Positions 1 to 38,125 of a stretch of DNA of 41,806 bases are shown piece after piece. Where the stretch lies: positions 1-41,806 of the forward strand of contig JAENRP010000366.1 in NCBI GenBank assembly GCA_024741835.1, in the 5' to 3' direction. The DNA is from Diplocarpon mali. Taxonomy: Eukaryota; Ascomycota; Leotiomycetes; Helotiales; Drepanopezizaceae. Both the position numbers and the translations under genes were made by a program. Position 1 is the first letter of the stretch; the number at the start of each line of letters is the position of its first letter. The notes beneath the pieces were generated by a model. That model did no database searches. It was given only the letters and a program-made list of their open reading frames with translations, and was not told the DNA's origin.

Positions 1-615
1 ATTTATATAAAATTAAATTATATAAGAGTTTTTAATAATTAATTTATATAATTTATAAATAATAACTATAAAGTGATCTTTAAAGTTAAAATTAAAGATA
101 GACTTTATATTATCTTAAAGGTAATATTATAAAAATTAACTCTTAAGCTAAACTTATAAGTAGATTCCTTTAAGGAAAGTGCACTCTTTACCCTAATATA
201 ATTAAGTAAGGATAAAGAGAATAGATAGACTTTTAAGCTAAGATTGTAAATGAAATTTGCGAAAATAACTCTTAAGCTAAAACTATAAGTAGAATATAAT
301 ATATTTTTAAAGATAACTCTTAAACTAGGATTATAAGTGAATTTAATAGAAATGACTCTTAGGCTAAGCCTGCGAGTAGATTCTATAGATTTATTAATAA
401 TAACTCTTAAGCTAAGATTATAAGTAAAATTCGTAAAATTGACTCTTAGGCTAAGATCGCAAGTGAACTTCGCGGATTTGTTAAAAACGACTCTTAAGCA
501 AGAACCGCGAGTAGATCTTGCGGTTCTATTAAAAACGACTCTTAAGCTAAGCTCGCAATTAGAAAATGGTAAAACCTCAAACTGCTATTACTATTCCTTT
601 CTAATTGCTAATAAT
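1..615 (+). mobile_element. Copia-A copy 1, left fragment (protease end and palindrome array)
   Basis: This is a broken internal piece of a Ty1/Copia element. It aligns closely with 3237-3880 of the complete Copia-A copy at 1235-7423: the same sequence after the protease, the same palindrome array, and the same start of the pre-integrase region. Homology stops at the chromovirus LTR that begins at 616. The element resumes at 39048, so about 38.4 kb of later insertions separate its halves. Some 20 bp present in copy 2 (about 3881-3903) are missing at the break. The left part of the element lies outside the window. No function survives. Confidence 0.85.
139..560 (+). repeat. Palindrome array A (9 units, in frame)
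   Basis: Nine 23-bp degraded palindromes start at 139, 229, 268, 316, 355, 403, 442, 490 and 538. Each begins ACTCTTA or similar and ends near GCGAGT or its RIP form ATAAGT. The spacings are 90, 39, 48, 39, 48, 39, 48 and 48 bp, all multiples of three, so every unit is read in the same phase as an eight-residue motif such as TLRLRSQV or TLKQEPRV followed by a short spacer. The best preserved unit is at 355-377. The 90-bp gap probably holds one lost unit. Confidence 0.85.
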
Positions 616-872
616 TGTTACGACTCGCTCTGGAGCGTACAAAGGGGCGTGAATCGAATAACGCTGACTATATTACCTTAAGAGGTACGCTATATAATAG
701 AGAAGAAAAGATAAAGAGGAGAGAGTCTCTAGTAGAGCTCCTCTAGAATAAGTACAGGTACTTTACTAGCGTGCATATAATTTAGCTACCTCGCTACCTT
801 AGCGTGCACCTGACTTCTTATAGCCTTAGTGATACGTGATATAACTATATACGTAATACGGCTATAATACTA
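616..872 (-). repeat. 3' LTR of a chromodomain Gypsy element
   Basis: This is read as an LTR of an element on the minus strand. The left edge is TGTTACG at 616, directly against interrupted Copia-A sequence. The right edge lies next to a purine tract on the minus strand (AAAAAGGGGGGAG, 875-887), as expected for the polypurine tract before a 3' LTR. Gypsy chromodomain coding sequence follows on the same strand. I did not find the partner LTR in the window, so the right edge rests on the tract alone. Confidence 0.6.
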
Positions 873-874
873 CT

Positions 875-1234
875 CCCCCCTTTTTAAAAACTGCGCCTGC
901 GCAATTATATCTATAGGCGTATCGTTCTCTAAGTCCTTATAATTGTCAACTCTATTATTATATAACTTAAGCCAGCTTAGTAGCACCCTTAATAGCCCTT
1001 TAGCTTAAGGGTTATTTAGATGGAAATCTCAAATAGCATATAGCACTATTATAGCATCTAAGCATAGGTACTATTTAAGGTCTTTATTAGCTCCCTTCTA
1101 CTTAATCTAATACTTAAGCTTCTTAGCTTAAATACGGGATCTGACTACTTCCTCTATCTCCTATTCCTCTTACTCTAGCAGTACTTTAATTAAGGCAAGA
1201 GGTTCCTAAACCTAGCCTAGCAAAGGGTTAAGAA
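875..1234 (-). pseudogene. Chromodomain tail of Gypsy (chromovirus) polyprotein
   Basis: The minus-strand reading, with RIP stops restored to Gln or Trp, gives a chromodomain at about 1010-1170. It starts IEEVVRSRIQAKKLKY, continues with a WIKWKGA core, and ends with a DFH motif before the protein tail IDIIAQAQF. In chromoviruses this domain sits at the C-terminus of integrase and is thought to direct insertion to methylated-histone chromatin. The piece continues at 7424, because Copia-A copy 2 inserted exactly between 1234 and 7424. Several in-frame stops make it dead. Confidence 0.75.
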
Positions 1235-1429
1235 TGTTAAGATAGGTGATACAGCTATTACTCTAATATATTATCATATGACCCTATTACTTAATTAGTA
1301 GGATATTGATATATATATAGCTATAGGGAAGAAAGGGGTAACCTTCCTTCCCTAACTCTTATTAATATATCGACTATCGACCTTTAGAAGCCTCCTTTAC
1401 CTACTGCGCCGACTTACTTAAGCTTAATA
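1235..1429 (+). repeat. 5' LTR of Copia-A copy 2
   Basis: The LTR starts TGTTAAGATAGG and ends AATA, probably AACA before RIP. It has the same length as the 3' LTR at 7229-7423. Every difference I read between the two is a transition, for example TGTTAAG against TATTAAG and GTGATA against GTAATA. Confidence 0.93.
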
Positions 1430-1442
1430 GGTTATAAGCCCT
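1430..1442 (+). other. Putative primer-binding site of Copia-A copy 2
   Basis: The sequence GGTTATAAGCCC directly follows the 5' LTR, where the tRNA primer-binding site should lie. Allowing for RIP, GGTTAT(C/G)AGCCC would be a typical tRNA 3'-end complement. The primer tRNA was not identified. Confidence 0.5.
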
Positions 1443-1810: not shown

Positions 1811-3355
1811 AACGCAATTCTATTAGAAACGGCAATAGCTTCTAATTCCAATCGAAACACTAGACTCAAAGACCTCCAACTCTTTCGAAAGAACTAGTAA
1901 TAATAGTTCGACGATTTAGAGCTTTACTTTAAGAGTAAAGGCATTAAAATAGCAATTTAAAAGATACTTATTAAATACGTAAGAATAGCCTCCTATACTC
2001 CCTCTACCGATTTGTCTACTTCTACTTTAATAGCTAATATAACTGCTAAGGATTTGCCAAATATATTAAATAAGCTTAGCTTAAGAGCTTTAATAGATAA
2101 TAATCAAGAATCCTAAAGGTAGATTTTAAAAATAGAAAAGGAGAAGGAGTATAGGCTAGCCTTAGCTAAATGCAAGCTTAAGATTAATAGAGGTTTAAAT
2201 GACAAAGACTAAGATTTTATTCGAGTTTATAATAATATAAAGATAAGATAGGATACTTTAAAAGTAAAATACTCTTAGACAACTGCCTTTAATACTTAGT
2301 ATCTATTATAGTAGATTACTTTATTTTAATATAGAAAAGATAAAGATAGTAAGGATATAGATATAAATATAGACTCTACTTAGTCTATATTATATAAAGT
2401 AAAAAGGAGAGTAAAAGCCGCAGATCTTAAGATAGCTTTAACTTTTAAAGAAACTTAGCTTTTTAGTTTCTTACTTAATAGCCTCCCTCTTAAGTTTGCT
2501 ATTGCGAAATAATCTCTTCTTATTTAATCTAACCTTAAGATCTATAAGAAGATCGATCTCCTTTGAACTATTGAATAAGACCTTAAAGGACGCTTTAAAT
2601 CGGCAAATGCTATATTATAGGGTAACGATAAGCCTAAGAAGAGAAAGGAGCGCGGGATAAGCCCTTAAGCTTATTAGGGATACTACTTCTATAATAATAC
2701 TTATAATATTACTAATTATAAAGTTAAAAGGCAACTGATCGATATAGTCGCTAGCTTTAATATTAAGAAGCAATTAAAGCAGAAGTTAAAAAGCAAATTG
2801 CCTTTATCCTATTAAAGGCCGCAACTACTAAGGAAAAGCAAAGGAAAAGGCTATTTAGCCAAGACTTTAGTAGATACCTTTAATAATAATAATAGGTTAT
2901 TTAAACCTAAATCTACTTTTGATAATTTAAATAATAATTATAATAAAGATGCTTATATCTTAAAAGCCGATCTTTATAAGATCTTTAAATCCGACTAGTA
3001 TAGTAATACTAGTTATATAGTATATATAACTAATAAATCCTACCTATTTAAAGGCCCGCTTATTAAAATAAAAAGGCATTTTATTAAAGTTAGTAGTAGA
3101 AGGTTATATATAGACTCGATAGGTATAATAGAAATAAATATTATTAGCATTTCTTTCCTTTTATAAAATGTTCTCTTTATACCTAACTTAAGTATTAATC
3201 TTTTATTTAGCTATAAGATCTATATAAAGTTGATTTATATAAGAGTTTTTAATAATCAATTTATATAATTTATAAATAATAATTATAAAGTGATCTTTAA
3301 AACTAAAATTAAAGATAGACTTTATATTATCTTAAAGGTAATATTATAGAAATTA
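1811..3355 (+). pseudogene. Copia-A gag and aspartic protease
   Basis: This is the first part of the broken Copia-A polyprotein. Gag is a hydrophilic, Lys-rich region that includes LFSFLLNSLPLKFAIAK, the position where Copia gags carry their 'LLNALPxxY'-type segment, at about 2460-2520. A degraded zinc-knuckle-like cluster follows near 2670-2710, with the expected Cys and His now Tyr or Asn. The protease region at about 2990-3230 reads IVYITNKSYLFKGPLI, then IKRHFIKV, and ends VLFIPNLSINLLFSYK, matching the VLYVPxLxxNLLS segment of Copia proteins. About one codon in ten is TAA or TAG where Gln or Trp would fit. The frame runs on into the array at 3356. Confidence 0.82.
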
Positions 3356-3825
3356 ACTCCTAGGCCAGACTTATAAATAGATTCCTTTAAGAAAAGTGCA
3401 CTCTTTACCCTAATATAATTAAGTAAGAATAAGGAGAATAGATAGACTCTTAAGCTAGGATCGCAAGTGAAATTCGCAAAAATGACTCTTAAGCTAAGAT
3501 TATAAGTAGATTGTAAGGTATTTTCAAAGATGACTCTTAAGCTAAAATTATAAGTGAATTTAATAGAAATAACTCTTAAGCTAAGACTATAAGTAGATTC
3601 TATAGATTTACTAATAATAACTCTTAAGCTAGGATTATAAATGAAATTTGCAAAAATGACTCTTAGGCTAGGACTATAAGTGAAATTTGCAAATTTATTA
3701 GAAATGACTCCTAAGCTAGGACTGCAAATAGATCTTGCTATTTTTAAGAAATCGATTCTTAAGCTAGGATTGCAAATAGATCTTGCAGTTTTATTAAAAA
3801 CGACTCTTAACCTAAGCTTATAATT
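3356..3825 (+). repeat. Palindrome array B (10 units, in frame)
   Basis: Ten 23-bp degraded palindromes start at 3356, 3446, 3485, 3533, 3572, 3620, 3659, 3707, 3755 and 3803. The spacings are 90, 39, 48, 39, 48, 39, 48, 48 and 48 bp, all divisible by three. All units are read in one phase, giving TPRPDLQI, TLKLGSQV, TLKLRLQV, TLRLGLQV and similar, joined by spacers of the type DLAVLLK. The array sits between protease and the pre-integrase domain, where Copia proteins normally have no such repeat. It has one 48-bp unit more than array A, so unit number varies between copies of the family. Confidence 0.88.
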
Positions 3826-5230
3826 AGAAAATGGTAAAACCTCAAACTGCTATTACTAGTCCTTTCTAACTGCTAATGATAAAGTATCGATTAATAATAG
3901 GCTATTAAAGCTATTAAAAGCCGAAAACCTATTAAGGTATTAGCTAATATATAAAAGATTTGCGTATCTAAAGCTAAAGAAATTAAAGGGCCTATATAAG
4001 GTCTCGACTTTAAAATAGAAGATTTAAATACTAAAGGATCGCTTAGTATATCGAATTTGTAAGCTAATAAAACTTCGAAATCAGATGCAAATTAAGCTTA
4101 ATTTATAAAAAGATTTAATACTAGTACTAATATCTATTAATACTATTAAACTATTTATAACCTTAATTAAAGGAAATAATTAGTTTTCTTAAATAGTAAA
4201 TAACTCTACTTAGCAGATATAGACTATTTATACTAAGACTAAATTTAAGCTTATAAAAAAGCTGGAAACTTAAAAAGTAATAGAAGAATGCTAAACCTAA
4301 TTAAAGCTAATAGCTATTAGGTCTAATAATATATTAAAGATTAAGGTAAAGCTTAATAAATAGGTAAAATAAAGAGTTTATTATAAACTAACTATAATAT
4401 ACAAAGGTTCCTATTAAAATGGCATCGCTAAGCGAAGCATTTAATAAGTAGAGACTAACTATTATACTCTATTGTAAGATGCTAACTTACTATTAGAATT
4501 CTAAGACCTTATAATTAAAGCAGATATATACTTATAAAATAGAATAGGTAATAGACTAATAGTCAATAGCACTTAAATATTACTATATAAGGTATATTTT
4601 AGATAGAAACTAAGCTTAGACTATATCTACGTCTTTAAAAGCATCTACTACTCTTATATTAGCTTAAAGTCCTAGCCTATAGGTATAAAAAGTAAGAAGC
4701 TAATAAACTAAAGTAAAGAGTATATATTTATTAAGTATATTTAATAGATAATAAAACAATAGATAGTATATATACTAGATATAAGGCGAGTAATTATATC
4801 TTTAATAATTAAATTTAATAAATCTCGAAATAAGAGGGAGCTATCCTTAAAGCTCTATATACCTAAAGATTCGCAAGGTATACTACTTAATAGTAATACT
4901 ATTAAGCCGAACTAATAACCCTTCTCTCTTAGCTTAGGCATATTAAGCGCACCCGCTAATCGATAACCTACTAATCGCCTAAAGGTCGAATAGACTATTC
5001 CTATTATCTGCGAACTACTTAAAGTAAGGAATAACTTTAATATTATCATCCCTTTAATTAAAGCACCTATAGTAAAGGATATTCCTAAAATAGGTATAAG
5101 TAATAATAAGCCTTTACTATTAGAAAGCAGTTCCTTAGATAATAAGCCTATAGAACCTATAGCCGAACCTATATCTTTAAAAAGGAATAGAGACTTAAAA
5201 CTAGAAGATACTTTAGATAAACGCAAGTTT
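3826..5230 (+). pseudogene. Copia-A pre-integrase and integrase
   Basis: This continues in the frame of the array. The pre-integrase part (about 3890-4100) ends in a degraded Cys-containing segment (VYRICKL) where the HHCC-type motif belongs. The integrase core includes YKGSYQNGIAKRSIQ at 4400-4440, the counterpart of the TPQQNGVAER motif around the catalytic Glu, then the AxxYLxNR segment near 4530. YVFKSIYYSYISLKS, KLINQSKEYIF and IKFNKSRNKREL follow, the normal order of a Copia integrase tail. The region from about 4900 to 5230 links to reverse transcriptase. Stops occur throughout and the protein is not functional. A diverged copy lies at 39048-40390. Confidence 0.85.
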
Positions 5231-6922
5231 AAGCATATCTAGGCTATAATAGCGTATAAGATCTATAAGCTCGAACTTTAATAGAGCTTTAATAAAGATA
5301 ATATATTCTTAGCCGCTAAGGGGATAATAAAAATCTCTCTTTTAAAGATATATAATAAAGCTATTAATAATCTAAAGAATAGAATAGAATAAAATAAGGC
5401 AATCTAAAAGGAGATAAGTTCTTTTATTACAAATAGTATATAAATAAAGGAACCGACGCTAAAGGATATGAACCTAGTTTTAATAAAGTAGGTCTTTATA
5501 ATTAAAATATATGCAAATAGGACCCTAGAACGTTATAAGGCAAGGCTTATAACTAAGGGCTTCTCCTAATAGTATAGAGAAGACTACTTTAATATATTTA
5601 CACTAATAGTTTGTATAGATACCCTTTGCATATTTATAGTAATAGTAGCCGCTAAGGACCTTGAATGCAAATAGTACGATATTAAAAATACATTTACTAA
5701 AGCGATTATAAAAGAATGGATTTTTCTCTTTTAACCTAATAGTATTCTTATATATGCTGGCCACTCTCTTTATATACTTTATAATATCTATAGGCTTAAA
5801 TAATCAGCCTATAATTAGAACCTCTTATATAGCTTTACTTTAATAGAAATAGGATTCATTTAAAGCCTAGCTAACCCTTATCTATTTACCTATATTAAGT
5901 ATAGAATCAAGTTACTACTATATATTAATAATATTACTATAGCTGCGAAAACAACTACTCAATTAAATTAGTTCTTTATAACTATTCGGAAACGTTTTAA
6001 TATTAAGGATCTAAGGGGAATTTATAAGATCCTTAGCATCTGTATTATAAGGAACCGCTCTACTTAAGAACTCTAGTTAGACTAAGAGCAGTATATTAAA
6101 AAGATCCTAGACCGAATAGGACTCTCTACTTATACTCTTAACTTTAAGCTAAAGCGTACTCCAATCGAAGGAAAGTATAATAAGTTAGAGCCTATTAATA
6201 AAAATAAGTAAAGAGCAGATCTAAAGAAGTACTAATAGAATATTAGAGCGATTATATATACTATAGTATATATAAGACTAGATATTGCCTTTATTACTAG
6301 GCAACTTAGTCAAAACCTAAAGGATCCGACGATTTGATATAAGAATGTAATCAAGCGATTTAAAAGGTACCTTTAATTAACAATTATATAAAAGGTAAGA
6401 TATAGACTGATAAAATATATAAGCGCAAAGCTTAAGGTATATACCGATTCTAACTAAGCAAATATAAAAGGTTAGAAAAGTATATCTAAAAGCGTAGTAG
6501 TACTATATAGTAGACTTATATTATAAGGAAGTAAGAAGCAGAAATTAGTAGCTACTGCAAGCACTAAGGCCGAATATATATTAATATTATTAAATTATAA
6601 GCAAGGATTATAAATCGCTTAAGTTTTAAAAGATATAGGTTTCGCTAAGTATATTAAATAAGATAGGAACTATATTAATCTTTAAGTAGATAATATAAAG
6701 GCGATTGCACTCGCAAAGAATCCACACTTAAATAAGCGATCGAAATATTTTAATATTACCTACTACTTTATTTGCAACCTTATTATAAAGAATAAGTTAT
6801 TAATCACTTATATCTAAACTAATTAAATAGTAGCAGATGGATTTATAAAGCTATTAAAGATAGTTGCAAAGTTTAAAATATTCAAAGATATACTAAGGTT
6901 GCAAAAGATAGTAGGGGCTTAG
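5231..6922 (+). pseudogene. Copia-A reverse transcriptase and RNase H
   Basis: Reverse transcriptase begins near 5440. It contains ERYKARLITKGFSQQY (RYKARLVAKGFxQ motif), KDLECKQYDIKNTFTKA (DVxxAFL block), RLKQSAYN, and the active-site line LLLYINNITI at about 5912-5941, where YVDD has become YINN through G-to-A change. RNase H follows: VYTDSNQANIKG, SKKQKLVATASTKAEYI, VDNIKAIALAKNPHLNKRS and the end ADGFIKLL. The frame ends at TAG 6920-6922, and this stop is probably authentic because the sequence beyond it loses coding character. The loss of both catalytic Asp residues and many stops make it inactive. Confidence 0.9.
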
Positions 6923-7228
6923 TAGGCTTAAGGACAATTCCTAGGCCTGCCCTGCGAGTCAGGTCATATAGTCTTATAAAGGAAAGTTTTTCTTTAAATC
7001 GACTCTTAAGCCTAGACTGCGAGTTAAGTTACGTAGTCTTATAAAGGAACGCTTTTAGGAAAATTGACTCCCGGTCCTACCTTGCAAATAGAGTTTGGTG
7101 ATTTCAATAAAGGTTATTATTAATTGATTATTTTTAATTTAAAGAGATACCTAAGAGTTGGATTAGCGTAAAAGGATAGTTATTATTTTCCCAACTGCAG
7201 GTCAATTGGAGTAAGGTCTAAGTAAAGG
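6923..7228 (+). other. 3' untranslated region of Copia-A copy 2
   Basis: This is the short non-coding tail between the pol stop and the 3' LTR. It holds three palindromes (6937-7089) and a purine-rich stretch (GGAGTAAGGTCTAAGTAAAGG) just before 7229 that could be the polypurine tract. No further gene is visible. Confidence 0.7.
6937..7089 (+). repeat. Three palindromes in a 65-bp tandem repeat
   Basis: Palindromes lie at 6937-6959, 7002-7024 and 7067-7089, exactly 65 bp apart. The spacer (ATATAGTCTTATAAAGGAA and on) is shared between the first two intervals, so the repeat unit is palindrome plus spacer. Unlike the coding arrays, the spacing is not a multiple of three, which fits its place after the pol stop. 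Confidence 0.85.
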
Positions 7229-7423
7229 TATTAAGATAGGTAATATAGCTATCACTCTAATATATTATCATATAACCCTACTGCTTAATCAGTAGGATAT
7301 TAATACATATATAGCTATAAGGAAGAAAGGGGTAACCTTCCTTCCTTAACTCTTACTAATATATCGACCATCGACCTCTAGAAGCCTCCTTTACCTACTG
7401 CGCCGACTCACTTAAGCTTAATA
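7229..7423 (+). repeat. 3' LTR of Copia-A copy 2
   Basis: This matches the LTR at 1235-1429 over its full 195 bp, with transitions only. It starts TATTAAGATAGG (from TGTTAAG) and ends CTTAATA. The target duplication AAGAA follows at once. Confidence 0.93.
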
Positions 7424-13254: not shown

Positions 13255-13259
13255 GCGGC

Positions 13260-20640: not shown

Positions 20641-20655
20641 TCTTATTATAAGGCT

Positions 20656-20790: not shown

Positions 20791-20795
20791 GCGGC

Positions 20796-23190: not shown

Positions 23191-23282
23191 NTTTTCCTTT
23201 TAACGTGCTTTATTAGTTCTAAACTATATAGTACGGCTAGTCTACTAGCGTGTTTAATTGTATATATATAGTATCCTTTCCA
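23191..23282 (-). repeat. Copia-B 5' LTR remnant (tentative)
   Basis: This lies upstream of Copia-B gag and ends with TTTCCA, so a minus-strand element would start TGGAAAGG. That is a plausible LTR start abutting the G4 target duplication CTATT. I could not find its 3' partner near 11241-11439. The base at 23191 is undetermined (N). Confidence 0.3.
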
Positions 23283-23287
23283 CTATT

Positions 23288-23531
23288 ATAAAACTGAGGG
23301 GAGATAACACAAGAATAGGCCTAAGGGAAGACCTAAAAACAAGAGGAGGAAGCACTATAAGCGGGCTCTCCTAGACAAGATATTAGGAATAAGTCCCAAG
23401 TATAGGGTATATTCAGTACTATAGCGACACGCGCTATCTTTATATATAGAAGGTGGCCCTTTTATCCTCCTACCGTCTTGCGCCGATCATATAATATATA
23501 TTATAAGACCTATCTATCTTAGGTCTTTATA
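23288..23531 (-). repeat. 3' LTR of G4
   Basis: This matches 38804-39047 at equal length (244 bp). Differences are transitions such as CTCCATA against CTTTATA. The target duplication CTATT is adjacent on the left. Confidence 0.88.
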
Positions 23532-23709
23532 TATATCCTAAATAATAAAAGTAGTAGCCCTTACTACTATTAGTAAAGAATATAAAATAATATAGGTTAA
23601 GGCAATAGCATATTAATCACTAGCAAACCTTAAGTGCGAGAAAACTAATATATTAAAAGGCCTAAACTAGGGCTATATTATTATTAAAGGTAAAAGGAAA
23701 AAAAAGAAG

Positions 23710-23764: not shown

Positions 23765-23767
23765 TTT

Positions 23768-23790
23768 ACCTATAGGCTAGGCCTGGGAGT
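23768..23790. repeat. Palindrome P1 (non-coding)
   Basis: Arms are ACCTATAGGCT and GGCCTGGGAGT around A. It lies past the stop of accessory gene 1, so it is not translated there. Confidence 0.8.
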
Positions 23791-24215: not shown

Positions 24216-25014
24216 CGTATTAGGGGTTTTTACATAAGGCTTTTTAGTGCTATACTTCTTAAGAAGAATTATCTTATCAATTATATTATTAGCCTTAATA
24301 TTATCGTTAGTGCCTTTTATCTTAGCCTAGGATTTATTGCTATATAACTATAGTTCCAATTATTGCACTAGCTTTTAAGTATTAGCAAAATTGTTAAAAA
24401 GTTTTTACTTATATTTCTTTAGATATATTATTAGTTATGCCATATCCTTTAAGAATAACTCCTTTATAGCTATTACTATTAATAGGTTATTTTATAATCT
24501 TCTACCTATAAAGGCCTTTGATAATAGACCGCCTTTCATTATCTCAAGGGTTATACGGAACTTTGCAGAAGATTCTCCTGCTGCACCCTATCTTATTATA
24601 CTTAGTCTCTTTATACTAAGTGAGTTAATAAGAAAATCTTCTAAGTTGGTGCCGTTCTTAAGTGAATTATTGCTAATAACTTCTGTATAGTTATTGTTAA
24701 TAGTTAAAAAACCGCCCTTTCTAGGTTCCTGTTTTGAATTAAGATTAATAAATATACCTTGTCTTATAAATACTAAGAATGGAATAGTATTATTTGAAAT
24801 GTATTCCTCTAAGATAATTTTCTCCTTAGTATTTAGCTCTTTTTATTATATAGCGCTTTGCGCTAGATTTAATAAGATCTATTAAAAGTTCTTAAGATAA
24901 TAGGATATAAGTGTAAATGACTTATAAGACTTTTCCTATATAGCAAATTCTCTAATCGATTGTTTTATAGTAGGAATTATATAATAGTTAATAGTTCTAT
25001 TATTAAGGGAGTTG

Positions 25015-25037
25015 ACCTGCGAGCTAGGCTTAAGAGT
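25015..25037. repeat. Palindrome P3 in accessory gene 1
   Basis: Arms are ACCTGCGAGCT and GGCTTAAGAGT around A. It is read in phase 1 as TLKPSSQV from codon 759. The equivalent place in accessory gene 2 holds P7. Confidence 0.85.
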
Positions 25038-26244
25038 CGATTTAATAAATCGCAAGTTGGTATCAATCTTAGTAGCAATAATTCTCGAATAGTAGTCAAT
25101 GCCTATAAACTATATAAGCTTAAGATATATTACTAACTTATATAAAGACTTATAATAAGTTAATAGCGCATTAAGATATAGCCTATAGTGCATTCTTAGA
25201 GTCTGTTGTATTAAGCTATATATTATATTATAGAGAAATGCGGAAGGGGGCGAAAGTTTTTTATTAGAATTTTGAAAATGATGCTAGTATATTTCTAATT
25301 CCTCTTATGCTAATGTTAAAAATGAATTCTTTCTATAATGGCTAGGGCTATATATACGTATAGCGTTTAGAAAGGCATAGCTAAGCAGCTTAGGCATATT
25401 TAAGAAGCCTTTGCTATAGAGCAATATTAAGGTATTATTAGTTAGTATAATCTTATATTAAGCAGGAGTCTAAGCGATATTATAGAACAATTTAAGGGCC
25501 TTAAGTGCTACTCAGAACTTAGAGAAACTTAATAATATATCTTTCTTAACCTAATTGGCTATTCTATTACTAGTGGCTATAATTGTATAGTTTCTGAGGT
25601 ATAATAAAAACAGTTTTAGATCAGGAGTAGTATAAAATTTGTAAATATTAAATAATACCTTTTTATTAATGATGCCTATTAATGCTAGTCTGTAGTATAG
25701 TGCATATTATCATTTATAAATAGTATAAAATTTCTTAAAATGGAAGTCTTTAAATATCCCTATTACGAATTTACTTAAGTAAGTCTTTATTTTTAGTATT
25801 ATTATGACTTTGAATCTATTACCATACTATAGTATTATCTTAATGTTAAAAGGGACTTGATAATATTCTATAAAGATTATTATCATAGTGTCTTTAGGCT
25901 TCTCCTTAAGCATATAGTAGTCGCCTTTTGATTTCTTATAATCGATAAAGAACTATATAATATTATCTAAGGTGAATTTGTCTTATTGCAGTTTTATAAT
26001 CTGTTTAATAGCTTTTGCTATTGCCTCTTATGCTAATAAAATATCTCCTTAGTTTTCCTTTTTCAAACGCTTTATTATAGACTTATAGAATTTCAGAATA
26101 AACTTTTGCAGATCTTCGGGAAAGGTTTATATAATATTAGATGTATCCTTTTTAATATTATTAAAAATTTCTAATACATTAGTAATAGGGCTATCTACTT
26201 CATCTATTAGCTTATCTTTTAAGTCTATATTATTATATGTTCTG

Positions 26245-26267
26245 ACCCGTAGGCCAGGCCTGCGAGC
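26245..26267. repeat. Palindrome P4 in accessory gene 1
   Basis: Arms are ACCCGTAGGCC and GGCCTGCGAGC around A, well preserved. It is read in phase 1 as ARRPGLRV from codon 349. I see no counterpart in accessory gene 2, so it may be a private insertion. Confidence 0.88.
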
Positions 26268-26430
26268 CAGTTTCTTTACTACTAGTATATAAGGTGTTTT
26301 AGGCATTTTTAAGGACGGTGATTTAAACACATCTGAGTCTAATGCTTTAGGGTTATAATAGTTAGCAGTTTATATTTCTAGTATTATAGGCACCTTATGC
26401 TTATAGACTTCTTTATTATATGCTAATTCT

Positions 26431-26453
26431 ACTTATAGGCTGGACCCGCGAGT
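26431..26453. repeat. Palindrome P5 in accessory gene 1
   Basis: Arms are ACTTATAGGCT and GACCCGCGAGT around G. It is read in phase 1 as TRGSSLQV from codon 287. P8 in accessory gene 2 (codon 283) lies at the matching place. Confidence 0.85.
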
Positions 26454-27311
26454 CAAATCGCGCTTGTCTATTGATCTTGCCGCGGGTAGTAGTAGCTTTA
26501 GGGCGGTAGGTATAATAAATTCCTATCTTTCCGTTTTATTATTAAAGTAGTTTATAGTATATTCAGCTAAATATATTATCTTTTCTTTTATAATAAGTAG
26601 ATTGTATTATGACTATTATAAGCTAAGCGTATTTAAAATAGTTTGGTTAAGGAGTGTAAGATTATTATACTAGGCGGGGCTATCCTTTATAGTTTAAATA
26701 GTAGAGTGTATAATAGTGCTTAAGAATCTAATAAATTTTCTATTTTGCGTACTATTTCCCTGCAACTTCTTTATACCTTTTTAGATAGTGAAATGATTTA
26801 ATACCTATATGGCTTTGGCTATTAGTTAGTATATCTTAAAAATCTTGCTAAGTCCTTGCAAAGTATTATTCGCAGTAATATCATTTATAAAGTGGCTTTG
26901 AAAGAGCGTTTTATGTGTTTTGCTTATAAACTGTATTAGTCTTTTTATATACTCATTTTTCTTGTTTTAGTTCTTCCGAAATAAATCAACCGAATTGGCA
27001 TACCTTTAATACTCTTATAAAAACTTTTCATAATTAATACCTTTACTTTAGAGTTCCTTATCTAAGAAATTATTAAAATCTAAGAATCCTTCCTTAATAG
27101 TAGAAATTCTATAGTTAAGCACTTTAATAGATGAATTTAGAAATACTTACTGTTCGGTCTTACCTAACGTTCTATAGGTGCTTATTATATCTTCTAATAA
27201 TCTTAGTGACTTGCTATCCTATGAGAACCCTCCCTTTAATATTAGTTTATTATTAGTAGTACTTGAGGACTTACTGCTTAAGGCAATAACTGATATATTC
27301 TTCTTAGGTAT

Positions 27312-28080: not shown

Positions 28081-28103
28081 ACTTATAAGCTAGGCTCGCG
28101 AGT
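28081..28103. repeat. Palindrome P6 in accessory gene 2
   Basis: Arms are ACTTATAAGCT and GGCTCGCGAGT around A. It is read in phase 1 as TREPSLQV from codon 1040, close to the place of P2 in accessory gene 1. Confidence 0.85.
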
Positions 28104-28965
28104 TAGTCTTAGCGTTTTTAAGCTTAAGGGTAAAAACAGGGGATTGGTTCCTAAATTAGGGTCTAATACTATACTAGCATCTCGGTTTATCTCTTTTCCG
28201 AATTTTCTTACAATAATGCCTTTATCAATTAATGCATTAGGCTCTTAGATAGCATTTACTTTATCGCGCTATCCTTAAGACTTAAGTCTATAAAGAAGCG
28301 ACTTAGTATTTATAACGTTTGTCTAGGCCTTAATAAAGGCGTTAAAGAGCTTTTGATTATATTTTATAAAGTGGATTTTCAATTCGTCTTTATTAAGAAG
28401 AAACAACTCTTATACTTTAATTATAACTAATAGATCTATTTAAGAGCGTTGATTAATAATGGCTTTAAAAAGGCTGCCGCAGTTCTTAAGATAAAAAGCT
28501 GCTTTAAAAGGTATAATAGTTCTACTTGTATTAATCTATCGAGGTACTAGAGGTTGCTTTAGAGCAAAGACTAAAAAGATAAAATTGGAGATTTGAGTCT
28601 TATTTTCTAAGGTATTCTTATTATAAATAGCTATATAGTTATTATAAAAGGCTATAAAACCACTAGTCTTATAAGAATTGTTTAAAAGCATTTTAAAAAG
28701 GTATCCTTATTTTATTATTACTATAATTGGATTACTATTATTAATAATAGGTCGTAAGATCTCCTTTCGCTTTAATTTCGCAGTTATTTAAGCTAGTTGA
28801 GATTTTAAACTAAGTACTTAAGAAGTCTATCGACTTATCTTATTTATAAATAGAGTGAGTTTCATATTCGACTAAGAGCCGACCTACCTATTAAGGCTTT
28901 TAAAAGCTGGCCTTTATCTAATTGGTAGGATCTAATAATCTAAGACTTGCTTTTTAATAAAATTG

Positions 28966-28988
28966 ACTTATAGGCTAAGACTGCAAGT
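28966..28988. repeat. Palindrome P7 in accessory gene 2
   Basis: Arms are ACTTATAGGCT and AGACTGCAAGT around A. It is read in phase 1 as TCSLSLQV from codon 745. The flanking protein aligns with the flanks of P3 in accessory gene 1. Confidence 0.85.
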
Positions 28989-30351
28989 GAAAATCGGAAT
29001 TTCTTTATTAGTAGTACTTATATCTCTCTTTATCGAAACGACTTAATTATAAAGACTAAGGCCAATCAATTAAAGAGTTTTAGGATAAGCTATAAGCTAA
29101 TAGGCTCCTCTACTTTTCGCTATTATAGCTAAGAGGTAGAGTTTATAATATATTTAAAGGACTTATTAAATAAGACTGAATATTATATTATAAAGAAAAT
29201 AAGAAGGTATAAAGGTCGCGTTATCTATAGGGCGGAAGTGATAAAGGTATATCTCTACTTTTTATCTTATAATAGAGAGGAATATACTTATAAAAGCACT
29301 ATTATTAATAGTAAAATTGTCGGTTAGGAAGCGGTATCTAAAGGATTTAAGCATTATAATTAACCCTTCTTCTTTTATTTCCTTTTACTATTTATTACTT
29401 AATAATATTAAAAAGAAAGAATTATTCTATTTAATTAGCTCTAATGCCTTTAAGGCTTTAGGATCAGCCTTAAATTTTATAGCACTTAGAGATGCTTCTA
29501 TTATTAATAGGTTAAATTTACATATCCTTAAAGAGATAAAGAATTAATTATTAGGGTAGATTAGAAAAAGATCGATATCTTCTATTGTATAAAGAAGTTC
29601 GAAGTATTTAATAGTTTTATTAATATTAAATCCTTTATAATTAAGACTATAGTAAACCGAAAGAGAGCAAATATAAAGGTCGCAAAGTCTTTTCCCTTCG
29701 ATTCTTACGCTAGAAAGATACTATTAAAAGCGAGTTTTTATTATAAAGAACACTTGAATATTATATTGTTCTTTAAGCTTAAGGTTAAGAATAACCGATT
29801 GAGGCATATTGCTATAATTATAAATGTCTTAATTAATAGATTCCTTTTCGCATTCTCTTTCTTATAAGATAAAATAGTCTTGCTTAGCATTTAAGAGACC
29901 TAGTTCTTGACTTTTGTAATTATTAAAGAATTAAATAATATCTATAAGGGCGAACTTATTTAAGATAAGCTATTGAATCTATTTAATAGCTCTTTTAATC
30001 GTCTTTAGAGTAGTAGGAATAGGGTCTTCTCTTATATTATTATTTCTAAAACAGTTATATATAAATATAAAGAAGTTAAGAACTAGCTCTTTTAAGTTGT
30101 TAGAGAAAGAGTTTAAGTAAGCGCGCAATCCTTTAGTTTTAAATTGCAAATTAGTTAAAGTAGCTATTAAATAATCTATCCTTTTTAAAGGTTGAGTTAA
30201 AATAGGTCATTTAGCTAAAGGAGAGTCCTTTGAAGATTTCGAAAATTCTAAAGAGGCTGCGCTAAGCGTTTAAGTAGTTTATTTAGCAGCAGTTTCTAAA
30301 ATCATTTTAATAAGAGGTAGGTTAGGTCTAGTTTTAAAATTCTTATTTCTA

Positions 30352-30374
30352 ACTCTTAGTCTAGGACTGCGAGT
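30352..30374. repeat. Palindrome P8 in accessory gene 2
   Basis: Arms are ACTCTTAGTCT and GGACTGCGAGT around A. It is read in phase 1 as TRSPRLRV from codon 283. The matching place in accessory gene 1 holds P5. Confidence 0.87.
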
Positions 30375-31220
30375 TAAATTATATAGTTTAGCACTTATTA
30401 TATCTTTAAGTTAAGAAGCGAATTTTAAGGTAGGCTTAATTATAAATAATTAATTCCCTTTTTTATTATTAAAGAAATCTTATTCAAACCTTAGTATAAG
30501 AGTCTAATTCTCTTTTAAAATAAGCAAACTATAAGTAGAAGCGCAAAGCCTTAGTATATTAATAATAGTACTATTAGGTAGGGTAATATCTATAGCTTAA
30601 TTTGATCTTTTTATAGCCTTATTAACTACTATAAGTATTGCATTAGATAAGCTTATAAATCTGCAATTACGAATTCGATTGCCTTAGAATTTTACTACTC
30701 CTTTTTAAATAATAAAGAAATTGAGAATCTGAATAGCTTTAGCTATAAGAGTATTTTCCTTAAGAATTTTTAATAATACTCGCCTTCTATTATTAGAATT
30801 AATATTTGTTAAGAAGCGCGAACGAAATAGGAGTCCTCTTTTATTAGTAGCTAAATTATCTAATCGTCGAATAGATTCTTCCTTTTTATCTTAGTCTATT
30901 TTGAAAGTATCAGCCAAGGTTATATATTAATCTGCGTTAGCTAAGAATTCCTTTTTAAAGATTCCCTTTAGTTTTAATTCTTTAGTTAAGAAGTTATTAA
31001 ATTAAAGAATTCCAAGGGCCACTTGGGTTGAAAGGTTATTAATAGCATTTGCATAAGCTAAAAGGAGTTTTTATTACTTTATATCTCCTAAGGCTATATA
31101 GGTCGATTTAAAGCTCTTTAATAATATAATAGCTCTACTATCCTAAGAGAAGTTTATAACTAGTGCTTATTTATCCTTTATTATAATAGATAAAACCATT
31201 TATGAGTTCTTTAAAGGCAT

Positions 31221-31532: not shown

Positions 31533-32900
31533 TTAATATTCCTATTTGCGTTCTTCGGATATTTTAGAAATAATAACTTAAGGTTGCAATTAGTTAGGTA
31601 TTTTAATATTCTTTACTTATAGGACCGGCTTATAGGTTAAGTTGGAAAAATCTTAATCTTTATTTAAGGGTTTAAAATTGCTTATATTGCTATTAATTCT
31701 TATAAAAGATTTAAAGGTTATATCAATTTCTAATTTGTCTTCTAAAGGGAATAAGGTTTAGTTGTATTAGTAAAAGCGCTTTAGTCGATTAGCTATAAAA
31801 GTTCCTTTAATATTAATTCTATTAAGTTCTTAAAGAGAATAGTATCCTTTTTCTTTTTACTTAGATTTAACTTTAAATAGGCTAAGCTATTAATAGTTAA
31901 GTTTAATATCTATTAATATATTAATACTTCTTATAATATTATAGATTAAGATAAGATCATCTTTTTAAATAGGGTGCATTTTAAGTATTTTAAAAGCAGC
32001 TTATGTTTCTTTAGCTTTTTCCTTATATTATTTCTTTTATAAAATGATTTCCTTTATATCTATATCTTAGAGCTTAAGTTGTTAGCATCTTATTATTAGC
32101 AAATCGGAAAGGTTTTAAATTTAACTATAATTAAATAATCTCTAAATAGGCTATTAGGATTCAAGAGAGAGCTATGCCTCTTTACTATAAATAAGGAAAA
32201 ATAGTATAATTCTAGTCGGTTTATAGATTATTATTTAATAAGTAAAGAGTATTTTATAAAAGTGTTTTATTTAATTCTTAAATCCTTTATAAGTAACTTT
32301 AGATAGCCTATTAAGAATATTATAATATCCTTGCTCTATTACTCTATTAGCTTTCGAGTTATACGCTAAGATTTAAACCTATTTAATACTATATTTTTAC
32401 GAAAAAGCTTTAACTATTCCTTTATTTTCAAGGCCTTTATTAATAGTTAATCTGCTAAAAATATTATAGCAATAGACTACGTCTTCTTAAAGGAACTTTG
32501 CAATAGATTCAAAGTTAGCAGATCTTAAAGGTTATCCTTTAGGCTATCCTAATAGGTCTTCCTTTATTAAAATAAAATATATAATCCTATTTTTAATTAT
32601 TAGTACTTATATAATATTAAGACTGACTTTATAGAAAAGGCCTAATAGCTAGGTTAGGAATAGGGGATTCTCTTTATAATTAGGTTTTCGTTTCTAATAA
32701 GGGACGCAACTTTTTATAAAGGCTTTGCAATCCTTAAAAGAACCCTTTTAAAAGAATTTCCTTAAAAGTCAGTAGTAGGTAGACTTAGCTCCTTAGTGGC
32801 CAGTTTCCTTATAAATATCTTAAATAGCCTTAGCCCTTAGTTTTTCATTATTTAAGTAGAGTTATATAAGGAATAAGTTATCGCTCCTTTTAAATAATCG
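31533..32900 (-). pseudogene. G4 integrase
   Basis: This is the last domain of G4 pol, minus strand. The HHCC zinc region reads ETGHQGAKSTYYQLLRKF and CKAFIKSCVPYQKRKPNY (32680-32830). The core has LIIKNRIIYFILIKEDLLGQ, ANFESIAKFLQEDVVYCYNI, LTINKGLENKGIVKAFSQKY and VQILAYNSKANRVIEQGYYN (SAYxPxxNGxxERGH block). The C-terminal part includes HPIQKDDLILIYNIIRS and GYYSLQELNRINIKGTFIANR, then LKRFY, as in Gypsy integrases that end in a GPY/F-like region. The frame stops at 31533-31535, or at the earlier stop 31542-31544 if that one is original. P9 is translated near the end. Confidence 0.87.
31615..31637. repeat. Palindrome P9 in G4 pol
   Basis: Arms are ACTTATAGGAC and GGCTTATAGGT around C, strongly degraded. 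In the pol frame it is read in phase 1 as TYKPVLQV, just after the integrase C-terminal domain. Confidence 0.7.
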
Positions 32901-33049: not shown

Positions 33050-33072
33050 ACTTATAGGCTAGGCTCGCGAGT
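33050..33072. repeat. Palindrome P10 in G4 pol
   Basis: Arms are ACTTATAGGCT and GGCTCGCGAGT around A, with TTA/TAA continuing the symmetry outside. In the pol frame it is read in phase 2 as LASLAYK, in the linker between RNase H and integrase. Confidence 0.87.
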
Positions 33073-35015
33073 TAAGTCCCTTTAAGGTAATATATTAATA
33101 GATAATTAACTTCGTTCTCTACCTACTTATTAATATCTATTTCGTCTTCTTTAATTAAATTAAAGGGGTAGGGATAAGTTCTTCTTAAAAGGCCGTCGGC
33201 AGCGGTATTTTTCGTCCTTAGAATATATTTGACTTTAAAGTCTATTAGTTTTATTTAAGCAATCCATTTTATTAGTAAGGCTCTTAATAGGTCGCTTATA
33301 GCTCTATTTAATTATTCTACTAGCACTTTAGCATCGGTTTTAAAGATAAAGTAAGTGCTATAAAGGTCGCTTCTTATCTTTTTTATTGCCTTTAGAGCGC
33401 CTTTACATTCCTGCTTAATAGTATTATACTTTATCTTTACTAGATTCTAAAGACCACTTTCAAAGTAAGCTAGATGTTTTTTCTATTAGCTATTAGCTTA
33501 TTAAAGGATAGTACCCTATTCGATTAAGCTTATATTAACTATTAGTATAATTAGCCTAGCGTTAGCTTTATAATCTATTTTAATTAGATATGGCACTTTA
33601 AGCAACGCTTGCTTTAGTTATTTTATAGCCTCTATTTAAGGTTCTTCCTATTGAAACTCAGCCCCTTTCTAAAATAAGGTATAAATAGGTGCTGCCTTTT
33701 TAGCAAAATCCTTAATCTAAATGCAATAGTATATTATAATACTAATAAACGCGCGAGCTTTTGCTATATTATTATACCTCTTCTATTTGTCGATTTTAAG
33801 TACTTTAGCCCTTTAAAGACTTCGGCTATTAGAATTAGTAATAAAACTAACAATTTCTATCGATAGAAGATAGTATTATAACTTTGGACTAACTGTTGCT
33901 CTTACCCTTTTAAATTGTATAAGCACTTAGTCTAGGTTCTATATATATTCTATTATAAATTGTTATATACTAAGGAGAACTTCTTTATAATTATAGAATA
34001 ATCTTAATCCTTTTACTCTTATATTGTTTATATAAGGGAGCGCAATATTAGGTATACAATCTACTAGTATCTTATAGATTACTTAAATAAATTGAGCGAT
34101 CGAATTTATAGCCCTTTAAGGTAATCTTATTATCTAAAGTAGCTTAAAAGGGGTTTGAATTGCTATTATATCTCTTGATTTAATATTAAGAATGAATTGG
34201 TTATATCTAAAGAAGAAGTTAATAAGAGAGCTATAGGTTAATCTTATAAATTTATTTAAAAACTTATCTATATTTAAAGGAACGTTAGCGTCTTTAATAG
34301 TTACTCGGTTTATCTTTACTATTATTATTATTAGTCTATAAGTTCCCTTCTCTTTCTTAGCAACTAGGAACCATTTATTCTTATAAGGGCTATTATAAAA
34401 CTCGAGAATACTTTGCTTTAGCCTATCCTTTAATATTTCGATTACCTTTTCTTAAAGAGCTTTAGGGACTTCGAATGTTTTCTTTTATTAGGCTTTATAA
34501 GGTATTATCTTAATTTTAATATAAGGCGTAACCTCTTTTTAAATCTGGCTAAGTTCCGTTTAGTTAAAAGCTAAGGCGTCCTTTTAATTTATTAAGGTTT
34601 TATAAAGTAGTTCGCGTTCTTACTCTATTAAGTCTTCTTTAATTTTTAATATATTAAAACGTTCTTTTATTAGCTAATATCCGATAGGTTTATTAAAAAA
34701 TCTACTTATAATAAACTTATCGAATTTGCTACCTAGCTTTAGAGGTCGAAGCTTTTTATCTTATTTAAACTAATTATCTAATCCTTTAGGCTTTAAGCTA
34801 TTAGAGATTCCCTAATCTACTAGTCGTACTTTATCGGCCTTGCTTTTATATATAGTTCGAATATTAGCTAGTACTATGCTTTTCTACTTCTTTCCTTTTT
34901 TATCAAATCTTATAAAATGGTCTGAATTTTCCTTTTTAAAAATAAATAAAAGATTTTTTAAGTTATTAATTTAAAGTGCATAAATAGAAATATTATTAGT
35001 AATTTTATTTTTTTC

Positions 35016-35038
35016 ACTTGCAGGTCTGGCCTATAAGT
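35016..35038. repeat. Palindrome P11 in G4 pol
   Basis: Arms are ACTTGCAGGTC and GGCCTATAAGT around T. In the pol frame it is read in phase 3 as LQARPAS, upstream of reverse transcriptase. Confidence 0.85.
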
Positions 35039-35177
35039 GGTTTTTAGATTTTTTAAAATAATTAGTAAATTATTAAAATTTATAAAATAAACTCTCTTCT
35101 CTACCTTATTTTTCTTTTTTCTTAATTATTAAGCTAATAAAACGCTAATTATACTATTTTTTAAAATTCTAGATTTA

Positions 35178-35200
35178 ACTCCTAGTCTAGGACTGCAAGT
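35178..35200. repeat. Palindrome P12 near the gag-pol junction
   Basis: Arms are ACTCCTAGTCT and GGACTGCAAGT around A. The flanks GATTTA and TAAATT extend the inverted symmetry. It sits where the frame passes from gag-protease to pol, so its reading phase is uncertain. Confidence 0.85.
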
Positions 35201-37093
35201 TAAATTGCTATTATTTAAAATCGGCAAACTTACCTTTCTTTTACTATAATTCCTTGCTAAGTGCCTTCCTTTACTAGTATTAAGCCTAGCCCTTATACTA
35301 GCTAATTGTTTCCTAAAACCTTATTTTAGAATTCGGCTATATCTTCTATAATAACCATTTGTCCTTTTAAAGATCGATCCATATTCTAAAGACTAGCTTT
35401 TATAAGACTATTTCTAAGATAGTTAAATATTAGCTAAGATTTTAAAATAAAGGGCATTTTTAAAAGAATATCATTTAAAGAATTCTCTATTATTAAAAAG
35501 TTAGTATAATTAACAATTCCTTTAACTTTAACCTTTATATTTTTCACCTATCTATTAAAATTGTGTCTTAATCTAAAGATAGTCGAATAAATAAGGAGTC
35601 GATCGCTAATAATTATTAATTAAGCTATTTCCGCCACTTTTCTAATTATTACATTAACTTTTAAACTATAATCGATTAGAGCCTTTGCTTTAATTGATTC
35701 TTTTATTAAACAAATAATAATAGGGCTTTTTATCGCAACTATTAAACAATTTCAATTAATATTCTAAGATATTAAAGCTATTACTATAATATTATAATAC
35801 CTTTAAGTTCCTTTATCTTTTATAATCTAAAGACATTTGATTAAGGCTAAATGCTTCTTAGAGTTCTTTTATATTATAATTTCTATTTCCTTATTATTAT
35901 TCAAATCTTTAAAGGCAACTAGGATATACTTTCTTAGCACTTTATTAAAGCGTTTAGTCAAACTAAATAGGTCTTTAAATATAAGGTTAATTTGCTAAGC
36001 TATAACATTCTCTACGGCTTTCTCTATTACAGTTGAACTAGCGTATTTATTAATGAATTTTTCCTATTTTAATATCTATCTCTTTCGCTTAAGGTCAAGG
36101 GTTTACGCAATAACTTCGACTTCTTAATCTTTAAGCTTAAAGCCATCTTTATCTATTATATTTTTAATTAATTCATTTGCTATATCGGCTTTATCCTTAT
36201 CTACTATAGTTCTAAATTATTAAGTATCTTTTAACATTTGGACTCTATATTAAGATTCCTAAGTTGCACGCATTGATTTCTAGACTTTAGCTAGTTTTAT
36301 TAGTATTAGGGAAGTAGTAGATTTAAAAGGACGCTAAGTATTCTAAGGGTTTTTAAATATAGAAGTAGCATTAATATTAGTAGATATATTATTATTAACC
36401 TACTTTAAAATAGAGATACCTTTGACTTTAGTAGCAGTCTGGTTCAAAGTTTAGTTAATAAGCACTCCTTTAGGTAGATTGCTAGCTAGACCTATATATA
36501 TATAAGTTAGGACCTTAGAGTTGATTTCGATAATGCGCTTCTATTTGGCTAAATCCTTATCCTACTTTATACTGCATATTATTATTCGAATAGTCTATAG
36601 CTATAAACGATTATAGTATTTTTTAATAAGGATAGCGTCTAGTCTAGGATCTTTAATATAAAGCATCTTATATTTATTAATATATATAATCCTAGTATTA
36701 ATAAAACAAAGGAAAAGAGGGCAATTGTTGCAATACTTATATAGAGCGCAGTTAGGTTTTTTATTATTGCAAAAGTTGCAGGTTAGCCGTCTTCTATTGC
36801 CGTTTCCTTAGTACCTTATAGTATTAATATTAGTAGAGTACTAGTTAGGATTAATTTCTCTTTCTTTAGCCAGCTATTATATTCTTATATTAGTTAGTTA
36901 TTTTAAATGATAAGAAGTAGGAGTCTAGTAATAGGAACTATTAGGTTAGCTTATAATAGCTGAGTTTTATCTATTACCAAACTAAGGAATATGCTATTTT
37001 TCCTATAAGAGATTATTAATTCTAGTTTCTAAGCTTTAGATTTAGAGTTTTGCAAATTAGGTCTTAAGTTCCTTAATTCTAAGGTTGGATCTC

Positions 37094-37116
37094 ACTCTTA
37101 GGTTAGGCCTGCGAGT
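37094..37116. repeat. Palindrome P13 in G4 gag
   Basis: Arms are ACTCTTAGGTT and GGCCTGCGAGT around A. In the gag frame it is read in phase 1 as TRRPNLRV, starting exactly 465 codons after the ATG. Confidence 0.9.
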
Positions 37117-38102
37117 AAAAGGTATAACTACTAGGTTCTTCTTTACTTCCTTTATAACTTCTAAAGCTTTTGAGTATTCTTAGACCAGGCTCTTAAGGTC
37201 TTTAGTATAAGAGGGAGTAGGGGCTTTTTCCTATTTTATAGTATTAATAGTTCTTTTACTAAGATCTGATTTTAAAGCAAAGGCTAAGAATTCCTTAAAT
37301 AAGGCAAAGGTTATAGGGTCTTGCTTATCGATCTTAAAATACTTAATAATCTTATTTTAAAGGCTAGTAGGTAATTTAAGTAAGAAAAGGCGGCCTCTTT
37401 CAACTTCGCTAAGTATTTTCTAGCTAATTAAGGTGTTTAATATATAAGTAAAAGTCTGATAATAGTTCTTAAGTTCCTTAGGAGTTTAAGTGATTAGAAC
37501 AAATTCCTTTAAGAAAGCTAAAGTATTGCAAATCTACTATCTATCAAATTCTTAGAATTTAGATTTAAGAGCCTTAATAAGGAGTTCTTATAAACTATGC
37601 GTTTTCTATTTAAAGAGGGATTTGATAATATCTTTGCTTATATAGTTATAGTAGCAAGGAAGCTAAGAAATCATATCCTTTTATATAATATCAAAATTGT
37701 AATAAGTTTCCTTATATTACTTAAGGAAATCAGTGATATTAGCGCTTATAAAGTAAGGAGCGCTAGGGGAATTAGAGAGGGGAAAGTGATTAGTAATAGC
37801 CTTAAATGCGGCTATTATCGTTTTATACTAACCGTTTGAGTTAATAGAATCTATAAGAGGTAAAGGGGAAGCTTTAATATTATAAGATTAATTACTAAGA
37901 GGAGTACTTTGAAATTTAAAAGGGCTTAAAGAACATTTAAAATCTGAGTTAATCTTAGAGTGATTAAGACGAGTTTGAAAAGATTTAAATAAAGGGTTAA
38001 TAAAAAGTTTAAAATTATTATTATTTTTAGTATTTTCTAGTATTAATATTGAAAAAGTAAATAGTAGTCCTAAGTTGTTTAAGGATATCTTTTTATCCTC
38101 CT

Positions 38103-38125
38103 ACTTATAGGCTAGGCCTAGGAGT
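38103..38125. repeat. Palindrome P14 in G4 gag
   Basis: Arms are ACTTATAGGCT and GGCCTAGGAGT around A. In the gag frame it is read in phase 2 as LLGLAYK, near codon 129. Confidence 0.85.

Follow-up and report, generated by a model that had tools for sequence, protein, structure and literature searches.

A short palindrome shared by Gypsy and Copia retrotransposons of Diplocarpon mali, and a possible route of spread by reverse transcription

Rickettsia palindromic elements (RPEs) are palindromic repeats of about 150 bp, found in many unrelated bacterial genes and, in about half of the cases, in frame within proteins; in the passages cited they carry a readable peptide and typically lie in less structured protein segments (PMC10969869, PMC2996958). 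PARCEL repeats are described as dyad-symmetric DNA coding for variable-number protein repeats, in some taxa linked to mobile elements, the repeat being 25 residues long, amphipathic, and often present in membrane-targeted proteins of bacteria and eukaryotic microbes (PMC2996958). The GC clusters of yeast mitochondria (GC42) are short, GC-rich palindromes that have multiplied; the passages cited mention suspected reverse-transcription or RNA-mediated copying, a putative target-site duplication, and presence or absence at homologous positions (PMC4478555). Palindromic microsatellites of Fusarium mitochondria, also fungal, have been proposed to be mobile and contain (A)n/(T)n runs (PMC7218506). 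The subject of this study is a 23-bp palindrome in long terminal repeat (LTR) retrotransposons of the fungus Diplocarpon mali. It was followed in a stretch of 41,806 nt (contig JAENRP010000366.1, positions 1 to 41,806; the window), where it lies in two elements named Copia-A and G4, and across the 49.4-Mb genome.

Two or more Gypsy families, two or more Copia families and one noncoding repeat family carry the palindrome. The explanation preferred here, at a probability of roughly 0.5, is that in at least four LTR retrotransposon families it spread as copied nucleic acid, through template switching in reverse transcription. A nucleic-acid origin is favoured because nearly the same 23 letters occur in untranslated DNA (the noncoding family, D, and the 3' end of Copia-A), because both orientations occur and Gypsy and Copia elements alike carry the palindrome, and because the linkers of relatives outside Diplocarpon are mostly without it. 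Capture during reverse transcription is favoured because the recognised hosts belong to the LTR retrotransposons, which package their RNA with reverse transcriptase, because a hairpin can form from the unit, and because RNA-mediated copying is suspected for the yeast GC clusters (PMC4478555). An RNA patch of one element would, long ago, have been copied into the complementary DNA of another; frames other than T-P-G-P-G-P-R-V would mostly have been removed by selection, the palindrome being kept where the frame tolerated it, mainly in linkers; and the thousands of present copies would stem from amplification of the host elements rather than from new insertions. That the palindrome was kept chiefly in linkers and chiefly in one phase, and that it multiplied along with its host element, is drawn from the counts given below.

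Using the pattern ACTCNCGGGCCNGGCCCGNGAGT, with at most 2 differences beyond C-to-T or G-to-A and at most 11 differences in total, 37 palindrome places were matched in the window (9 at 139-538, 10 at 3356-3803, 3 at 6937-7067 and 15 at 23768-38103), compared with 0-3 matches in 20 dinucleotide shuffles and 2 with the pattern read backwards. The same pattern found no palindrome start in window 7,068-23,767. A preliminary description had claimed about 36 copies; its figures for Copia-A (9 + 10 + 3) were reproduced and the number is well above chance, while G4 holds 15 instead of 14, one of them (37176) doubtful. Across the genome, a symmetric, decay-tolerant pattern gave 2,597 places and its reversed control 0, and the undecayed pattern with at most 1 mismatch gave 130 places, again with 0 in the control. 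The undecayed form is ACTCCCGGGCCNGGCCCGCGAGT, 23 bp in length. With the C-arm placed first, C stood at both position 5 and position 19 in 21 of the 23 mismatch-free undecayed places listed, and because of this one fixed mismatch the palindrome has a direction. The consensus proposed earlier, ACTCGCAGGCC, with its GCAGG arms, is a decay product; the accompanying claim of an ancestor free of stops in every frame of both strands is also true of the corrected form, as read from the sequence. A single letter of the 23 differs between the Copia copy L096 and the Gypsy copy L125; other sites vary more, for example with GAG or GGA within the arms. The exact undecayed pattern had no match in IMG/VR or in bacterial and archaeal genomes, and among the literature matches listed, neither this palindrome nor any palindrome from nuclear elements of Diplocarpon was described.

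The symmetry continues beyond the core. In 30 site rows, the hexamer next to either end, read inwards, conforms to RAWTYS: across the 60 flanks, pyrimidines occupy position -2 in 58, purines position -6 in 47, T position -3 in 41 and A position -5 in 38, the rows being not all independent, as arrays give more than one and the doubtful 37176 gives another. Because these outer arms are conserved, the unit is taken to be about 35 bp, and it is predicted to fold into a hairpin. In RNA folding of real sites against 200 shuffles, L114 reached -23 kcal/mol and L120 -17 kcal/mol, with 0/200 shuffles as good in either case. The 46 sites in 40 loci that were picked for undecayed matches fell into 13 flank clusters, and the 310 sites of the window and all loci collected fell into 74 in-register site families, many of which are array positions.

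The hosts were recognised by Pfam domain matching with stops read as X. Family A (Gypsy, L026) matched RVT_1, RNase H, integrase core, SH3 and chromodomain, the last three below the curated cut-off, and is nearest to proteins of Diplocarpon coronariae, its best genome copy being 90% identical to protein P0001, with 19 stops. A Copia family matched copia gag and Pol_BBD at L003 (both below the Pfam cut-off), and SH3 and RVT_2 at L017; since L017 also has L003-type sites, these domains are placed in one Copia element, as they are in D. coronariae P0129. Within the window, Copia-A matched RVT_2 and G4 matched RNase H and an H2C2 integrase domain. DNA comparison with the window at 1e-8 gave no match for L017, one match of about 240 bases outside pol for L003, and none in G4 for L026, so that these are families separate from the window elements at the DNA level. 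Family D is noncoding; its palindrome adjoins a poly-T run whose length varies, and the family is a separate element inserted in a G4 copy (boundary L012:1091-1100). Loci L117 and L122, in a GC-richer repeat, contain a 45-base palindrome array whose 22-base spacer is a different one.

In what follows, phase 1 is the reading of T-P-G-P-G-P-R-V type. The features of Copia-A in the window are these:

139..560, + strand: array of nine palindromes (139, 229, 268, 316, 355, 403, 442, 490, 538), in a fragment (1-615) of a second Copia-A copy
1237..1429, + strand: likely 5' LTR of Copia-A, 92% identical to 7231-7423
3356..3825, + strand: Copia-A coding array of ten palindromes, in phase 1 of the pol frame, the same frame as RVT_2
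5471..6127, + strand: Copia-A reverse transcriptase domain (PF07727; E 7e-18, stops as X), which anchors the frame
6937..7089, + strand: untranslated 3' array of three palindromes (6937, 7002, 7067), after the pol stop (about 6917)
7231..7423, + strand: likely 3' LTR of Copia-A, 92% identical to 1237..1429

Window 1-615 repeats 3218-3880. All 17 spacings in the first two Copia-A arrays (8 at 139-538, 9 at 3356-3803) are multiples of 3, while those of the untranslated 3' array (65 and 65; 66 and 61 in the relative L131) are not multiples of 3 in the window copy. Coding arrays grow by tandem palindrome-plus-spacer units in steps of 3: family A has 1-3 copies of a 45-base unit, the Copia family has units of 48, 54 or 66 bases in its first linker and of 45 or 48 in its second, and Copia-A has units of 39 and 48 bases. 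The ten-copy array was considered as a Copia-A LTR and rejected, as 3356-3803 belongs to the pol frame and the likely LTRs are 1237-1429 and 7231-7423. Long open frames on the minus strand across the arrays were put down to the palindrome together with the 3n spacing. Family A Gypsy sequence is interrupted at window 1237 and resumes at 7426; Copia-A sits within a family A copy, L026 3113-3623 and 2576-3118 matching the window flanks 726-1237 and 7426-7968, and about 6 bases are common to both flanks, as target duplication would give. Window 39048-41806 is occupied by another pol segment of Copia-A, which is 87% identical to 3902-6660 and starts at about the edge of the G4 5' LTR; G4 may have inserted in Copia-A.

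G4 measures 15.85 kb between its LTRs and has the following features:

23282..23616, - strand: G4 3' LTR, 83.5% identical to 38798-39132
23768..23790, - strand: palindrome just inside the 3' LTR, nearly undecayed in the relative L121
24193..24215, - strand: palindrome of module X2, phase 1, 46 alignment columns from the X1 site 28081
24256..27227, - strand: module X2, 57% identical to X1 (BLAST)
25015..25037, - strand: palindrome common to X2 and X1 (partner 28966), phase 1 weak
26245..26267, - strand: palindrome in X2 only, phase 1, none at that place in X1
26431..26453, - strand: palindrome common to X2 and X1 (partner 30352), phase 1
28081..28103, - strand: palindrome at the edge of X1, phase 1, with a gap opposite in X2
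28205..31151, - strand: module X1, a repeat of X2
28966..28988, - strand: palindrome, X1 counterpart of 25015 by module alignment
30352..30374, - strand: palindrome, X1 counterpart of 26431, phase 1, same alignment column
31615..31637, - strand: weak palindrome, no clear frame
33050..33072, - strand: palindrome in the RNase H to integrase linker, other phase (LASLAYK; LASPARE in the nearly undecayed L161)
35016..35038, - strand: palindrome, phase 1
35178..35200, - strand: palindrome in opposite orientation, phase 1
37094..37116, - strand: palindrome, no clear frame
37176..37198, - strand: doubtful palindrome match, 8 differences, 2 of them beyond C-to-T or G-to-A
38103..38125, - strand: palindrome inward of the 5' LTR, possibly in the leader, no clear frame, undecayed in L114
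38798..39132, - strand: G4 5' LTR, 83.5% identical to 23282-23616

Modules X1 and X2, both about 3 kb and downstream of the G4 integrase, are 57% alike by BLAST and 51% in full alignment; no Pfam match was found in either (stops as X), and a protein search with G4 gave 8 distant matches of 22-29% identity. In the module alignment, two palindrome positions fall in the same columns in both, while 26245 is in X2 only, so that at least one palindrome site was gained or lost after the duplication. A weak alignment puts sites 24193 (X2) and 28081 (X1) 46 columns from each other, and the two may go back to a single site that was duplicated. A 27-base X1/X2 gap was dropped as a measure of insertion length, the short-window alignment being unstable. 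Elsewhere in the window, direct repeats of about 154 bases, 86% alike (13264-13414 and 20660-20813), flank a Gypsy element (reverse transcriptase and RNase H at about 17.6-18.6 kb) and are possibly its LTRs; no palindrome was found in the element between them.

Related proteins place the peptide mainly between domains. The intact Gypsy proteins P0001 and P0002 of D. coronariae have two 15-residue units of STPGPGPRV type between RNase H and integrase, and the intact Copia protein P0129 of the same species has TREPGPGV twice in the linker from gag to Pol_BBD and TPGPGPRV three times between the SH3 and reverse transcriptase domains. The Gypsy protein P0012, also of D. coronariae, carries DFTPGPGPRVDS at residue 52, in its N-terminal part, the decayed DNA counterpart being L144. 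Relatives outside Diplocarpon are mostly without the palindrome peptide in their linkers. It is absent from P0130, P0131 and P0132, and in the aligned Gypsy linker of P0003-P0016 (n=14) the motif is in P0012 (Diplocarpon), TREPGARV in P0003 and a looser peptide in P0005, the other 11 of 14 being without it, including P0015 of Drepanopeziza brunnea. Together these linker comparisons gave no exact insertion boundaries. TREPGARV at residue 833 of P0003 and TREPGPRV at residue 241 of P0017, both Gypsy proteins, are known as peptide alone; the latter was rejected as an insertion, as it lies in a variable stretch with no clear insertion.

The phase in which the palindrome is read proved to be largely constant. 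For G4 sites, the stop columns common to at least 80% of copies were counted in the three coding-strand frames: phase 1 had 1 such column at 26245 (against 10 and 14 in the other frames), 3 at 26431 (10 and 10), 4 at 28081 (13 and 11), 2 at 35016 (11 and 9) and 2 at 35178 (13 and 13). Site 33050 had 3 in phase 3, against 16 and 15. Counts were weak at 25015 (5, 8, 15) and at 38103 (4 in phase 3 against 16 and 6), and no clear frame emerged at 37094 (7, 11 and 15). Some frames of the opposite strand were equally open, e.g. at 26245, with 3 fixed columns. In the single window copy, phase 1 had 1 stop at 24193, against 11 and 23, and 5 at 30352, against 10 and 17. In the undecayed L120, phase 1 is open across site 28081, and phase 1 was also found at L026, L003 and L017. 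In the nearly undecayed L161, phase 3 alone is open across site 33050, for 31 codons, and this frame is also backed by the Pfam frame and the translation.

Altogether 11 of 12 clear-frame coding sites share one phase (chance 1.4e-4), 33050 being the sole exception. The 11 comprise two family A sites (one in the linker, one N-terminal), one site for each of the Copia family's two linkers, the Copia-A array and six sites of G4; the pair 26431/30352 and each array were counted once, clear sites were picked by the author's judgement, and 23768, 25015/28966, 31615, 37094, 37176 and 38103 were left out. If 24193 and 28081 are one site, the count becomes 10/11 (chance 3.9e-4). The preliminary description had reported the palindrome in all three phases and taken this as an argument for DNA-level insertion, an argument that fails, since nearly all clear coding copies share one phase. 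Its LQARPAS reading of 35016 runs in a phase with 9 fixed stop columns against 2 in phase 1, and the phase it gave for 37094 has no clear frame behind it. A frame filter or a protein-level preference must, given one dominant phase, be part of the explanation.

Several results weigh against spread as copied nucleic acid by template switching. One dominant phase fits a protein motif too. Third codon positions in the palindrome are not significantly conserved (1/21 columns against 45/369, p 0.27), and present selection on the palindrome DNA is therefore not claimed; another third-position analysis was set aside, its copies having been found via the palindrome itself. Folding is uneven, L125 reaching only -13.1 kcal/mol with 8/200 shuffles as good, and L120 -17. 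Firm boundaries were obtained for no empty site; the X1/X2 gap shifts with the alignment. At four sites (the linker of family A, G4 at 26 kb, D and G4 at 33 kb), the 40 best-scoring of 183-262 candidates each included no empty copy, all being within 9 bases of the matched query length. Nor did the 30 flank rows show a clear target duplication: at eight of nine offsets, 0-3 rows had direct repeats of at least 3 bases, and at the remaining offset 8 rows did, compared with 4.4 for shuffled pairs; the palindrome flanks are inverted rather than direct.

The best 40 copies at a fifth place, in module X1 at 30 kb, were likewise uniform in length. Such uniform, full-length copies suggest that acquisition is older than the bursts that produced them. 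No exact ends of an inter-element patch were found, the G4 module comparison being too diverged, and present mobility of the palindrome is not supported. The earlier proposal of a DNA-level element thus stands in part: untranslated copies, both orientations and the joint occurrence in Gypsy and Copia elements speak for a nucleic-acid origin, but ongoing insertion is not supported, and the lack of empty sites that the preliminary description had itself set against insertion is what was found, within this genome, among the best 40 copies at those four sites.

That the best members of four site families include no empty copy would also fit a single origin followed by DNA-level gene conversion or recombination among co-resident elements, with no mobility of the palindrome's own. 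The tandem multiplication of units within arrays agrees with this, as does the setting of the 50 genome places (of 2,597) that were listed in contig order, covering contigs 1 to 7 only: 42 lie in L134-L173 and 8 in other loci, all in repeated sequence; contigs 2 and 5 are not represented, and neither is the first 395 kb of contig 1 save at its very start. Every locus from L134 to L173 has at least one site with flanks that recur in register elsewhere, and so no place in single copy was seen among these loci. However, beyond the outer arms the families have unrelated flanks, which leaves little for homologous pairing, and G4 alone has about a dozen separate positions. Exchange of this ordinary kind is considered unlikely.

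Somewhat less probable again is a protein-level motif, T-P-G-P-G-P-R-V, selected at polyprotein junctions, for example as a flexible or cleavable spacer, with the palindrome as a by-product of its codons. The shared phase of the 11 sites, the multiples of 3 in coding arrays, and the location of copies in the gag to Pol_BBD, SH3 to reverse transcriptase and RNase H to integrase linkers are what such a motif would give. It does not account for nearly the same 23 letters in untranslated DNA, for the coding copy at 33050 in another phase, for the presence of both orientations within coding sequence, or for synonymous letters and codons that are largely identical, the centre excepted, in Gypsy and Copia families. 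A DNA hairpin element that entered at breaks or through a host enzyme, in the manner of mitochondrial GC clusters, or a relic of a miniature inverted-repeat transposable element, appears equally improbable: the palindrome is GC-rich and dispersed, and RAWTYS on both sides could be a target preference, but the 30 flank rows show no clear direct target duplication, and no family with both filled and empty copies was seen in the genome.

The reading by template switching can be extended, tentatively, to a hyperparasite, in which a gene-less hairpin coding element of 35 bp might have been moved among unrelated LTR elements by their reverse transcriptases, surviving as a harmless Pro-Gly linker. 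If the preferred explanation is right, palindromic coding elements of the Rickettsia type exist also in a filamentous fungus, living on retrotransposons, and would offer a simple system for how gene-less repeats cross between mobile elements and how new protein linkers start. They would also be a warning that short repeats common to retrotransposons can pass for protein motifs or LTR features.

How the palindrome relates to the described systems can be stated in several ways. Like the RPEs, it is a palindromic repeat in many unrelated genes, here of Gypsy and Copia hosts, and it is in frame within proteins, as in D. coronariae P0001, P0012 and P0129 and in arrays built in steps of 3. The analogy with RPEs drawn in the preliminary description is sound for the reading in linkers, while mobility and target duplication could not be shown. 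Unlike RPEs, with their length of about 150 bp and their bacterial genes, it has a 23-bp core (about 35 bp with arms), and all recognised hosts are fungal retrotransposons. Unlike the yeast GC clusters, which belong to organelle DNA, the places sampled here are found among domains of LTR retrotransposons, on many retrotransposon-rich contigs decayed by C-to-T change; there is no clear duplication, and the palindrome is fixed within families as far as seen. The Fusarium microsatellites are mitochondrial, not GC-rich and, in the section cited, not described as coding (PMC7218506), whereas the palindrome here is GC-rich and partly coding. PARCEL, compared by its description and without running its model, differs in sequence, the units here having 13 to 22 codons and a Gly/Pro peptide. 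Because length, peptide and host class differ, the palindrome is a member of neither the RPEs nor the PARCELs, but it works like both.

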